Shown: one piece after another, positions 45,882 to 55,230 of the stretch
Layout of the letters: the number at the start of each line of letters is the position of its first letter
Numbering within the stretch: position 1 is the stretch's first letter
Origin: Oscillospiraceae bacterium
GTDB taxonomy: Bacteria > Bacillota > Clostridia > Oscillospirales > Ruminococcaceae
Length of the DNA: 64,000 nucleotides
Direction of reading: 5' to 3'
Assembly: GCA_009784825.1 (NCBI GenBank)
Contig: WQXO01000003.1
Location: forward strand, 112,997-176,996
Program-made: the position numbers and the translations under genes
The notes under the pieces: model-generated
Databases searched by the model: none
What the model was told of the DNA's origin: nothing
The model's input: the letters and a program-made list of their open reading frames with translations, nothing else

Positions 45882-46142
45882 TTGAAAAGTATCAATTTTG
45901 ATAAAAACGCACAAAAACAGCTTAATAGAATTGATTTAACTACACGGTGCCGCATTATCAGCGGAATTGCAGGATTGACAGAGGAACCACCGCAGGGTGA
46001 CATTAAACAATTGAAAGGTTCACTTAACGGATTAAGTCGTTTGAGAGTCGGCAGTTGGCGTATAATATATGAAGCAACGGATGAAACTATTAACATACTT
46101 GTAATTTCTTCTCGTGGCGGAGTATATAAGAAAGGGGTGTAA
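45882..46142 (+). CDS. RelE/ParE-family toxin
   Basis: 86 aa, GDIKQLKGSLNGLSRLRVGSWRIIYEATDETINILVISSRGGVYK; TTG start. Confidence 0.9.
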   Translation: MKSINFDKNAQKQLNRIDLTTRCRIISGIAGLTEEPPQGDIKQLKGSLNGLSRLRVGSWRIIYEATDETINILVISSRGGVYKKGV

Positions 46143-46146
46143 TTAA

Positions 46147-46380
46147 ATGGCAGTTCAAGCTAATATTATTGATGTTGTCGAAAAGCTGTCTGATGACCGA
46201 AAAGGTATAATTTACAAACTTGCCCTTGACATGCTTTCCGCCCAACAATCAGAAGATTTTGATTCTTTCTCGTCAGAAGATATAAAGAAAATCCAAGAAG
46301 CACGAAAACGGGTAGGGGCAGGGGATTGCATTTCTTTTTCGTCTGCGGGTGAAATGGTGACACATTTTGGAGTGCAGTGA
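46147..46380 (+). CDS. Antitoxin partner of the RelE-type toxin
   Basis: 77 aa acidic small ORF 4 bp downstream of the toxin. Confidence 0.75.
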   Translation: MAVQANIIDVVEKLSDDRKGIIYKLALDMLSAQQSEDFDSFSSEDIKKIQEARKRVGAGDCISFSSAGEMVTHFGVQ

Positions 46381-48796: not shown

Positions 48797-48956
48797 TTTA
48801 AAGATTTCTCCTATTAAATTAAAGTGATACAAAGAGCAGTATAACATATAATGTCAGCATTGTCAACTATTCTCAGAAAAAGTTTTTTTAAGGCATTGAC
48901 ATTTATATTGCGTTATGATATACTTATGACATCAATTAATGAATGGGGGTGGCGTT

Positions 48957-49226
48957 ATGACCCAAACAACAATAAGACTTGACCCTTCTTTAAAAAAAGA
49001 ATTTGCAAAGACCTGTGATGATATGGGCTTATCTATTTCATCGGCAATAACCATTTTCGCAAAAGCGGTTGTGCGTGAACAGCGTATTCCGTTTGAGGTT
49101 GCCGTTGCTTCAAGGTTAAACGCTGTGACTGTTGCTGCAATTAAGGACAGTGAAACAGGTGTCGGCGTGAAAAGCTTCAAAACCCCTGAGGAATTGTTCG
49201 CAGAATTAAATTCGGAGGACGATTAA
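48957..49226 (+). CDS. dinJ: RelB/DinJ-family antitoxin
   Basis: MTQTTIRLDPSLKKEFAKTCDDMGLSISSAITIFAKAVVREQRIPFEV; TTGACA-N17-TATACT promoter upstream. Confidence 0.92.
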   Translation: MTQTTIRLDPSLKKEFAKTCDDMGLSISSAITIFAKAVVREQRIPFEVAVASRLNAVTVAAIKDSETGVGVKSFKTPEELFAELNSEDD

Positions 49227-49359: not shown

Positions 49360-49388
49360 TTGACAAACGAGAAAAAAAGTGGTATAAT
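49360..49388 (+). promoter_or_regulatory. Promoter of candidate sRNA, module 1 (TTGACA-N17-TATAAT)
   Basis: Consensus -35/-10 with 17-bp spacing. Confidence 0.75.
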
Positions 49389-49393
49389 ACAAA

Positions 49394-49485
49394 TAGAAAA
49401 AGGGTACACCGATAGGCGGTCACCCTCATTGCACTTTATAAATAGCCGCGTGCTTTTGGGAAGAGGCGGCTATTTCCTTTTTTTA
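49394..49485 (+). ncRNA. Candidate antisense-type sRNA, module 1
   Basis: Consensus promoter ends ~6 bp upstream; 5' hairpin AGGGTACACCG...CGGTCACCCT; terminator AATAGCCGC...GCGGCTATTTCCTTTTTTT at 49441-49484 overlaps the 3' end of the microprotein on the other strand. Confidence 0.6.
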
Positions 49486-49556
49486 TTGCTGTTCTGCATT
49501 ATGTTAATCACGTTACAGATAACGAGAGATAAAGTAAGAAACTCTAACCACGTCAT
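49470..49556 (-). CDS. 28-aa membrane microprotein (candidate type I toxin) MTWLEFLTLSLVICNVINIMQNSNKKRK
   Basis: Strong RBS AAGGGGGTGAG; homologous to the microprotein at 55034-55114; single hydrophobic helix plus KKRK tail. Confidence 0.7.
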   Translation of the reverse strand: MTWLEFLTLSLVICNVINIMQNSNKKRK

Positions 49557-49633
49557 ATAGCTCACCCCCTTTCGAGGGAGGGTTGACCGCACTACCGCTT
49601 GAGTATACCCTTAGACATATCCATGTCCTCTGT

Positions 49634-49665
49634 CATTATATCACGCAATATTTAATATTGTCAAC
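49634..49665 (-). promoter_or_regulatory. Promoter of microprotein mRNA, module 1 (TTGACA-N18-TATAAT), followed by 5' hairpin GACATggatATGTC
   Basis: Minus strand TTGACAATATTAAATATTGCGTGATATAATGACAGAGGACATGGATATGTCTAAGGG. Confidence 0.7.
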
Positions 49666-49859: not shown

Positions 49860-49915
49860 AATGGTATTATGTGCTGTTACCACAAATTAAAAAATTATTT
49901 TTTGGAGGAAAAACA

Positions 49916-51656: not shown

Positions 51657-52358
51657 ATGAAATTAAGGAAAATTATGGCAGTTGTTATCGCAGTTGCAAT
51701 GTGCTTCGGCGTAATGACAGTAGCAGCAAGTGCGGCAGACGTATCCACTATTGATGGTGGCGGCGACCAAAAATGGGTTGACTTCGGTACCGGTTTTGTA
51801 GACGGTAAAGAATACACTTTAGCGTTCACAGTTGTATCGGCAGGCGAAGGTAATATCCGTGTTCGTACTTGTGAAGAAACTGCATGGGACGCTTGGACTG
51901 ACCTCGGTGCGGCTAACTCTCATGAAGTAGCGGCAGGCGGAACAGCAACACATCTTCCCGCACTTTTCACCGGCTTTACAGCAGGTCAAACTGTTGAAAA
52001 CACCGTAAAGTTCACATGGGGCAAAGACACAGGTGCAGGTAAAGTTGAATGGGAATACACTGAAGTTCTTGCTATCGTTGGTGCGGCAGGTTGGAAAGAT
52101 TTTGAAGTTACTCAAGTTAAACTTGATGGCGTTGTTATCTACTCAGCAGGCGGTGCGGCTACTACAACCACCGACACAACTACCACAACATCTGACGCAA
52201 CCACAACCACAACCACAACTACAACTACAACCACCACAACAGCAGCGGCTGACGGCGACAAGATTAACGAAGACACAGGCGTTACCGGCGTTGTTGCTCT
52301 GTTCGGCGTAGCAGTTGTTGCTTCCGGAGCAGTTGCGTTAAGCAGAAAAAGAAAATAA
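51657..52358 (+). CDS. Secreted surface protein B, poly-Thr linker and NEDTG-hydrophobic-RKRK C-terminus
   Basis: Signal peptide; TTTTDTTTTTSDATTTT... linker; DKINEDTGVTGVVALFGVAVVASGAVALSRKRK. Confidence 0.85.
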   Translation: MKLRKIMAVVIAVAMCFGVMTVAASAADVSTIDGGGDQKWVDFGTGFVDGKEYTLAFTVVSAGEGNIRVRTCEETAWDAWTDLGAANSHEVAAGGTATHLPALFTGFTAGQTVENTVKFTWGKDTGAGKVEWEYTEVLAIVGAAGWKDFEVTQVKLDGVVIYSAGGAATTTTDTTTTTSDATTTTTTTTTTTTTTAAADGDKINEDTGVTGVVALFGVAVVASGAVALSRKRK

Positions 52359-52431
52359 TACTTAGAAACATAGAAAACGCCTTGTTGTATTGACAGGGCG
52401 TTTTTGTTTGTGGTATAATGGTAAGGGATAA

Positions 52432-52870: not shown

Positions 52871-53551
52871 ATGAAAAAAGTAATGGCGATTATTATAGCA
52901 TGTGCTATGTGTGCATGTTTAGTAGTTACAGTAAGTGCAAACCCGAAAGACGCTGACCCCACAAACGCTCCTATCGGTGCAAGCGGACATACACACGCAT
53001 TATTCGCAGACGGCGGCGGAGATACTTATTCTTCTCCTTACACCAACAAATGGTCTGAAGTTGCTTCCTTTACTGTAAAGTTCAACATCACCAACTGGGA
53101 TGAAATGGTAGAAGCACAAGATGGCGACCCCGTTGACGTACAGGTTGTTCTCAACTCTGCTGCACACGGCTGGGGCAACATCGGTGATGATTTAAACCAG
53201 TGGGGCAATATTGCTCTTGCAAATGCAACTGATTCTATGACTCACGTTTTAGACGGTGCACTTGATGATGACCAGTATTTCCAGGTTTGCGTAGGTGCAT
53301 GGAATGGTTTAGAGGGTACTTTCTCTATTACATTATTTAATGCAGCAGGTGCAGAAATCGCATTAGTTAAAGCAGGTGCTGTTACCACAACAAGCGATAC
53401 TATTACTACAACCACAACCACAACTACAACCACAGCAGCTGCTGACGGTGACAAAATCAACGAAGACACCGGTATCGTAGGCGTTGCTGCATTAGCAGGC
53501 GTTGCAGTTGTTGCTGCAGGTGCTGTTATGGTAAGCAGAAGAAGAAAATAA
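52871..53551 (+). CDS. Secreted surface protein C, poly-Thr linker and NEDTG C-terminus
   Basis: MKKVMAIIIACAMCACLVVTVSA; TTTTTTTTTT linker; NEDTGIVGVAALAGVAVVAAGAVMVSRRRK. Confidence 0.85.
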   Translation: MKKVMAIIIACAMCACLVVTVSANPKDADPTNAPIGASGHTHALFADGGGDTYSSPYTNKWSEVASFTVKFNITNWDEMVEAQDGDPVDVQVVLNSAAHGWGNIGDDLNQWGNIALANATDSMTHVLDGALDDDQYFQVCVGAWNGLEGTFSITLFNAAGAEIALVKAGAVTTTSDTITTTTTTTTTTAAADGDKINEDTGIVGVAALAGVAVVAAGAVMVSRRRK

Positions 53552-54182: not shown

Positions 54183-54842
54183 ATGAAAAAAGTAATGGCA
54201 ATTATTATAGCATGTGCATTATGTGCAGGCTTGGTTATCACAGCAAGTGCGGCAACTTTCGATTTACCGACCACTCCGCCGAAAGAAAATAACGGCAACC
54301 AATGGATTTACGGAAGTATCGGAATGGACGGCGAAGACGTTCCCGGACTTACATGGGAAATCTTACAATCCGCTAAAAAACTGATTATCGTTCTTAACAA
54401 TGCTATTCCTGAAGCTGACCTTGAAGAAACAGGTTTCGGTTTAGTATGGCAAGCTCCCGTTGATGGTTGGGGTTGGAACCAAGTAATATTTGATGCTGAA
54501 GATGTATACAATGCAGCAACAAAGACAATCACTTTTGATTTAACACTGATGAAGAACTATGACGACTGGCTCGAAGAAGATGAAAGAGGCAAATTAGTTC
54601 CGAGCATTTATGTTGGTGAAGATGATGGTGGTTGGGCGTCTGTAGGTATTTCTAAGATTTACCTTGATGGCGTTGTAGCTGCTACAACTACAACAACAAC
54701 CACTACTACAACTACTACAACCACAGCTGCTGCTGACGGTGACAAAATCAACGAAGACACCGGTATCGTAGGCGTTGTTGCATTAGCAGGCGTTGCAGTT
54801 GTTGCTGCAGGTGCTGTTATGGTAAGCAGAAGAAGAAAATAA
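54183..54842 (+). CDS. Secreted surface protein D, paralog of E, poly-Thr linker and NEDTG C-terminus
   Basis: Signal peptide; ATFDLPTTPPKENNGNQWIYGS... shared with protein E; poly-Thr tract. Confidence 0.87.
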   Translation: MKKVMAIIIACALCAGLVITASAATFDLPTTPPKENNGNQWIYGSIGMDGEDVPGLTWEILQSAKKLIIVLNNAIPEADLEETGFGLVWQAPVDGWGWNQVIFDAEDVYNAATKTITFDLTLMKNYDDWLEEDERGKLVPSIYVGEDDGGWASVGISKIYLDGVVAATTTTTTTTTTTTTTAAADGDKINEDTGIVGVVALAGVAVVAAGAVMVSRRRK

Positions 54843-54908: not shown

Positions 54909-54937
54909 TTGACAAATTAAAAAACATGAGTTATAAT
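54909..54937 (+). promoter_or_regulatory. Promoter of candidate sRNA, module 2 (TTGACA-N17-TATAAT)
   Basis: Perfect consensus with 17-bp spacer, same as module 1. Confidence 0.75.
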
Positions 54938-54942
54938 AACAA

Positions 54943-55045
54943 TAGGAAAAGGCAGACCAAGTGACGGTCGCTCCCTCAAAGTTGAATGGTTATCAACAAA
55001 ATTGCCAACAACCGCCTTGTTAGAGCAGGGCGGTTATTTCCGTTT
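54943..55045 (+). ncRNA. Candidate antisense-type sRNA, module 2
   Basis: Terminator-like AACCGCC...GGCGGTT at 55010-55035 overlaps the microprotein 3' end on the opposite strand. Confidence 0.55.
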
Positions 55046-55114
55046 ATAGTCATGTATTAATCGCAGTGCGTTACATACAACCAATGCGAGCGTCAGAAAT
55101 TCCAACCACTCCAT
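55034..55114 (-). CDS. 26-aa membrane microprotein (candidate type I toxin) MEWLEFLTLALVVCNALRLIHDYKRK
   Basis: RBS AAGGAGGTGATGTT-ATG; shares MxWLEFLTLxLVxCN...KRK with module 1. Confidence 0.72.
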   Translation of the reverse strand: MEWLEFLTLALVVCNALRLIHDYKRK

Positions 55115-55185
55115 AACATCACCTCCTTTCGCAAGGAGGAAAAACGACCGCCACCGTGTAGGTCTGCCTTAGACATGTCCATGTC

Positions 55186-55230
55186 CTAAGTAATTATATC
55201 ATATTATGGCAAATTTTGTCAAACATAATA
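55186..55230 (-). promoter_or_regulatory. Promoter of microprotein mRNA, module 2 (TTGACA-N18-TATAAT), followed by 5' hairpin GACATggacATGTC
   Basis: Minus strand TTGACAAAATTTGCCATAATATGATATAATTACTTAGGACATGGACATGTCTAAGGC. Confidence 0.7.

Follow-up and report, generated by a model that had tools for sequence, protein, structure and literature searches.

A candidate type I toxin-antitoxin module of the BsrG/TxpA kind and its relatives in Oscillospiraceae genomes

The locus at positions 49360-49664 raises the question of whether a 28-codon reading frame that faces a short RNA on the opposite strand is a type I toxin-antitoxin (TA) module and, if it is, to which of the known kinds it is related. 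The analysis covered the whole 64-kb stretch of DNA in which the locus lies, called here the window. An earlier reading of the letters alone (the sequence-only reading) had proposed a type I TA-like layout and had likened it to Fst/RNAII, TxpA/RatA and BsrG/SR4. Our comparisons make it very probable that the locus is a chromosomal type I TA of the BsrG/TxpA (holin-like toxin) kind, belonging to a divergent MxWLEFLTLxLVxCN branch and acting by the steps proposed below. Judged by sequence comparison, the module is a new, unrecognised branch of this known kind, with many copies in related gut bacteria.

The locus contains two facing promoters of the sigma-A type, each of which matches the consensus at 12 of 12 positions. 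On the minus strand, the promoter for the peptide mRNA consists of TTGACA (49664-49659) and TATAAT (49640-49635) with a spacer of 18 nt, and it is followed by a leader of about 72 nt, by GGGGGTGA directly upstream of the open reading frame (ORF), and by the ORF itself (49556-49470, 28 codons plus stop) for the putative membrane toxin MTWLEFLTLSLVICNVINIMQNSNKKRK. All the parts that the sequence-only reading had placed on this strand, that is the promoter, leader, ribosome-binding site (RBS) and 28-aa ORF, were found between 49664 and 49470. The plus strand carries TTGACA (49360-49365) and TATAAT (49383-49388) with a spacer of 17 nt, upstream of a predicted antisense RNA of about 93 nt (49395..49487) with a terminator hairpin and T-run at 49440..49484, so the promoter and short hairpin-terminated RNA described earlier for 49360-49484 are likewise present. 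Read on the complementary strand, this terminator contains the final Lys/Arg codons of the ORF together with its stop codon, which bears out the claimed overlap of the antisense terminator with the 3' end of the microprotein. The ends of both transcripts are predictions from sequence; for the peptide mRNA (minus strand, 49397..49628, about 230 nt) they were inferred from the -10 box and a T-run. The 3' arm of this mRNA (49402..49425) is itself a hairpin and a likely terminator, followed by the T-run at 49401-49397. Since the minus-strand transcript has its own hairpin and T-run (49425-49397), the predicted RNAs overlap by about 90 nt, nearly the entire antisense RNA.

The whole window contains 11 perfect TTGACA/TATAAT promoters of the sigma-A type, whereas 20 Markov-1 resamplings contained none on either strand, and just two pairs of them face each other at a distance of 400 nt or less (49360/49664 and 54909/55222), which argues that the layout of the module is not a chance pattern. 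The second pair belongs to a second complete module (54909..55222) placed between surface-protein genes. Its plus-strand promoter is at 54909 and the -35 box of its minus-strand promoter at 55222; its antisense RNA occupies 54947-55051 on the plus strand, and its ORF (55114-55034, minus strand), recovered by peptide-profile and DNA searches, encodes MEWLEFLTLALVVCNALRLIHDYKRK.

The peptide MTWLEFLTLSLVICNVINIMQNSNKKRK has a hydrophobic window at residues 6-20 and a KKRK tail, and alignment of 15 homologues gives the subfamily signature MxWLEFLTLxLVxCN. Over codons 2-20 the pN/pS ratio is 0.31 for all 15 copies and 0.18 and 0.17 within the MTW and MEW subgroups, respectively, compared with 0.65 and 2.9 in the out-of-frame controls (frames +1 and +2). 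All third codon positions vary among the aligned copies, while second positions vary at 8 of 20. The low pN/pS and this codon-position pattern indicate that the ORF is coding and that the peptide is under purifying selection. The peptide matched no family in Pfam or NCBIfam, and neither it nor its genome matched Pfam PF16935 (Hol_Tox) at E<=10. Peptide searches of viral contigs and plasmids found no relatives of the WLEFLTL subfamily; the sole match among phages had an E-value of 9 and was disregarded. Our literature search, which covered few subscription journals, found no published description of the subfamily.

DNA and peptide-profile searches located four copies in the window's own genome (two on contig C3 and the others on C11 and C13) and 11 in six genomes of the same genus. 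Low-scoring DNA matches, mostly to query positions 1-60, were excluded as A+T-rich noise, and the copies come from metagenome-assembled genome (MAG) sequences. The 15 full cassettes in these seven genomes each have the peptide, the Shine-Dalgarno (SD) hairpin described below, the antisense promoter and both hairpins, so the ORF and RBS are conserved in related genomes; the promoter for the peptide mRNA is kept at the same place in most of them. A search of named genomes gave matches in Oscillospiraceae MAGs whose isolate labels resemble those given to termite-gut samples, and another genus of the family contains four copies with peptides of the form MSIxEVLTLGxLIC. The copy in genome G026 (L067) has a frameshift within an A-run and a relative of the C11 copy (L153) has decayed, which would be expected if the modules turn over. 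Of the 15 same-genus genomes that have the locus beside secG, only the window's genome contains the module there and the other 14 lack it, which suggests that these modules come and go.

The folding of the peptide mRNA is also conserved. Its first 25 nt or so are complementary to its last 25 or so, and the 5' arm (GGGTATAC...GCGGTC, minus strand, 49585..49610) is predicted to pair with the 3' arm in a duplex of -32.2 kcal/mol. Pairing was assessed arm by arm, replacing a whole-mRNA alignment in which the 5' UTR was misaligned. Own arms pair better than mismatched arms both in the 15 copies (-30.1 versus -23.8 kcal/mol) and in 71 modules with other peptides (-38.0 versus -27.1 kcal/mol), with 0 of 20000 permutations reaching the observed difference in either set. 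The folding z of the two window mRNAs, relative to shuffles, is -5.1 (49397..49628) and -6.3 (second module). The strong RBS of the sequence-only reading is present but not freely accessible, as it sits in a hairpin, CCCUC-GAAA-GGGGG (minus strand, 49565..49578). This hairpin is predicted at the same place in 15 of 15 copies with 4-7 bp, and its two sides change in a compensatory manner (CCCUC/GGGGG, CCUCC/GGAGG, CUCGGAAACGAG, CUCAGAAAUGGG). The retention of every part in 15 cassettes, the coding selection and the covariation of the mRNA structure support the type I TA-like reading.

Complementary arms, scattered modules and a secG-side site that is empty in 14 relatives could also be explained by a small mobile element whose terminal inverted repeats are the arms and whose ORF is incidental. 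We compared an RNA helix with a DNA inverted repeat by aligning the arms with a scheme blind to G.U pairs. On the mRNA strand the arm pairs contain 127 G.U and 17 A.C, and G.U is in excess in 49 copies and A.C in 3; because the copies are related and raw cells are not independent, we also counted distinct five-base contexts, which number 55 for G.U and 13 for A.C. This asymmetry is not predicted for a DNA repeat, and on its strength the transposon-like inverted-repeat reading was rejected. The conserved promoters lie outside the arms, the ORF is under purifying selection and the same helix occurs in BsrG, all of which make a mobile element highly improbable.

An alignment of 20 antisense copies shows a 5' hairpin, GGC..ACCGAUAG.CGGUCGCC, and a terminator hairpin in which paired bases covary; from this alignment we built a covariance model, R1, which was lightly calibrated so that its E-values are rough. 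R1 matches the two window RNAs (49399-49487 with 83 bits; 51 bits for the second module) and 9-10 places in the window's own genome. Type I modules easily escape detection, since their peptides are tiny and their RNAs unannotated; according to a review (PMC6563280), a search by homology yielded almost none in Clostridia apart from two species. R1 detects modules by the RNA and not by the peptide; within the family it matched 93 of 299 genomes and 57 of 126 genera, with as many as 14 matches in one genome and with peptides missed by every family model, and it matched 25 of 300 genomes sampled across the phylum. The model carries no information on the opposite strand. Antisense to 77 of 99 matches, two of the 99 being training copies, we found an SD-preceded ORF of 18-60 aa ending 17-19 nt inside the 3' end of the RNA, a geometry seen at 8 of 1735 control positions in those loci.

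The peptides opposite R1 are highly diverse (MTWNEFLTLILVICNIIQ.., MVTYTELFQF.., MYITLSDLTQIGIFLTAFTVMIF.., MESIIIFLILVALNEVIKNIKK, MMNTYETLSLMIMFGMFVIAILSFNRKK), and nearly all end in K/R-K/R-K. The codons for this ending are the complement of the T-run of the antisense terminator, which means that a single piece of DNA specifies both the basic tail and the terminator; the terminator, and not toxicity, may be what imposes the lysine tail. Among these loci, a second peptide type, xEILDxLLIILYVVCENAQLLxSxxDSxKRK, faces this type of RNA at four loci of the window's own genome (L154, L155, L156 and L152), where two of the intact copies start with TTG. One locus (L158, G553:C92:6400-11000) packs at least eight antisense-RNA modules with at least three peptide types into about 3.3 kb. 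At two loci of genome G371 (L090 and L091) the 5' part of the module is swapped for a common repeat (GATCAAAGCGAAGCG...GATCGGC), and the end of the ORF and the antisense RNA are intact.

RNAs of the R1 type were also found on phage-like contigs. The IMG/VR contig 3300006098_000040 (L175), which carries tail genes, has two antisense copies (1-83 and 2818-2913) flanking an integrase gene, the second of them opposing MNNFVTWSELLQFASVFIGFTTLMYAIFHNKRK. The presence of the RNA on such contigs would be consistent, by analogy, with modules that help to maintain elements or take part in conflicts with phages, as has been shown for C. difficile prophages (PMC7699646).

These observations bear on the proposal that the peptide is a small membrane regulator under antisense control and not a toxin, tuning another membrane protein while the RNA sets its dose. 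Seven peptides opposite the same RNA type match NCBIfam ComI, an annotated competence inhibitor, although weakly (best E 2e-7, under the cut-off), and regulator and toxin are inseparable from sequence alone. A high and variable copy number (reaching 14 per genome), tandem arrays, very diverse peptides behind one RNA type, presence on phage and a secG-side locus empty in 14 relatives fit a selfish or defensive module better, and we regard the regulator as improbable.

The toxin reading also draws on known families, for which the cut-offs are 55 bits for Rfam BsrG (RF01412), 23.3 bits for Pfam Hol_Tox (PF16935), and 70 and 55 bits for NCBIfam PepG1 and ComI, respectively. At the gathering threshold Rfam reported a tRNA only in the whole window, and the window RNAs score 12.4 and 10.5 bits with BsrG, under the cut-off. 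Among loci detected by R1, BsrG gives 55.7 bits at L137, above the cut-off, then 53.9 (L128), 49.4 (L129), 44.5 (L132) and, at one more, 26.3 bits. Within the WLEFLTL subfamily its best score, which is still under the gathering threshold, comes from an end-to-end match to cassette L061 (23.9 bits, E 6e-4 within its 321 nt). Hol_Tox was matched by 14 of 50 peptides opposite R1 matches, and two of the 10 peptides scanned in detail scored over the cut-off (46.8 and 25.0 bits). A tblastn search with a Hol_Tox peptide led to genes annotated as 'putative holin-like toxin' on Terribacillus and Paenibacillus plasmids, where the toxin loci score 110.6 and 91.9 bits, respectively, with Rfam BsrG; R1 run unfiltered on the Paenibacillus plasmid gives a weak antisense match (19.2 bits, E 0.012) with the same 18-nt geometry. 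Alignment of the peptide profile with Hol_Tox members by hhalign has a modest probability of 66% (E 5.5e-5 for a single comparison, 23 columns) and is in register at the E/L/L positions. The window peptide has no match to PepG1 or ComI in NCBIfam, and in the detailed scan no related peptide scored higher than about 20 bits.

Rfam BsrG, Pfam Hol_Tox and R1 coincide on the same relatives' loci, which places the window module on a divergent BsrG/TxpA-type branch and not with Fst. This link from R1 and BsrG to annotated holin-like toxins further supports the type I TA-like reading. The suggested likeness to BsrG/SR4 and its relative TxpA/RatA held, but that to Fst/RNAII did not. An Fst/par-type module would share the convergent 3'-overlapping transcripts and the small hydrophobic peptide with a charged tail. 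In Fst/par, however, direct repeats (DRa/DRb) bridge both RNAs and the terminator is shared, whereas here the repeats are inverted within the mRNA and the terminators are separate. Neither the window peptide nor the peptides opposite R1 match an Fst family in Pfam or NCBIfam, and the links lead to BsrG/Hol_Tox instead. Membership in Fst was rejected on the missing direct repeats and family signature, and we give it almost no credence.

BsrG/SR4 (RF01412), from the B. subtilis SP-beta prophage, likewise has convergent 3'-overlapping RNAs and a hydrophobic peptide with a basic C-terminus. Its antisense RNA, SR4, is about 180 nt long, whereas that of the window is about 93 nt and faces a 28-aa peptide with the WLEFLTL signature. 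The toxin mRNAs of both have an outer 5'-3' helix and an SD hairpin of 4-5 GC pairs, so the architecture of the window module is that of the BsrG consensus, and intermediate loci are matched by both BsrG and R1. We had considered the 5'-3' helix to be new for Gram-positive systems and dropped the idea since the Rfam BsrG consensus contains such a helix. TxpA/RatA and Hol_Tox ('putative holin-like toxin') have peptides that begin, like the window peptide, with M-x-x-x-E-x-L-x-L and continue with one hydrophobic stretch; Hol_Tox peptides over the cut-off are also opposed by R1-type RNAs, but WLEFLTL peptides have no direct profile match. R1 in this way unites BsrG, Hol_Tox and unannotated clostridial microproteins under one architecture. 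The RatA overlap reportedly stops short of the coding region (PMC4147584), whereas the window antisense RNA covers about 18 nt of the ORF. The C. difficile modules CD2517.1-RCd8, CD2907.1-RCd9, CD0956.2-RCd10 and others likewise overlap convergently, occur in many copies, encode membrane peptides with a lysine-rich C-terminus and have prophage links (PMC6563280, PMC7699646), but their toxins are mostly longer (34-53 aa). In AapA/IsoA (Helicobacter) and Hok/Sok the mRNA is also closed by a long-distance 5'-3' interaction (PMC6733600), but the peptides are unrelated and the 3' arm itself masks the SD, which in the window mRNA lies in its own hairpin beside the 5' arm.

Under the BsrG/TxpA-type reading, we infer that the strong minus-strand promoter would give an mRNA of about 230 nt with its ends paired to each other, which would be poorly translated with its SD locked in a G+C hairpin of 4-5 bp. 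The RBS of txpA, bsrE and bsrG is concealed by 4-5 GC pairs (PMC6562991). The facing promoter would produce an antisense RNA complementary to the mRNA over its 3'-terminal 90 nt, among them about the last 18 nt of the ORF, and this pairing would most likely trigger decay by RNase III and keep the peptide off. RatA works by forming a duplex that RNase III degrades, and SR4 also makes the SD hairpin tighter (PMC6562991, PMC4147584). If the antisense RNA were lost or outnumbered, the peptide would be made, enter the cytoplasmic membrane and harm the cell. With these modules it can be clearly tested whether closure of the mRNA between its 5' and 3' ends blocks translation in Gram-positive systems.

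A broader proposal, which we consider rather doubtful, is that many unrelated membrane microproteins (20-37 aa) can be swapped in opposite one common antisense scaffold, which would have diversified to 9-14 non-identical modules in single genomes of Oscillospiraceae relatives, each RNA being specific to its own mRNA. The repertoire would then act as a distributed anti-phage or genome-stabilising system and not as isolated addiction modules, and with the basic tail written by the terminator, RNA and peptide ends would evolve as one.

The module at 49360-49664 is flanked on one side by a RelB/DinJ-type antitoxin gene (48939-49226), which is followed only by a short remnant ORF with no full toxin gene, as in an orphan or decayed type II module, and on the other by a surface-protein gene starting at 49871 or 49917. 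Adjacent small ORFs lie at 45882-46380, and the one at 45882-46142 looks, by eye, like a RelE-type toxin. The genes at 51657-52358, 52871-53551 and 54183-54842 form a tandem family and encode secreted proteins that contain poly-threonine runs; the C-terminal tails of these proteins are near-identical (DGDKINEDTGxVGVxALxGVAVVAxGAVxxSRxRK), and perfect sigma-A promoters lie near these genes at 52390 and 53604.
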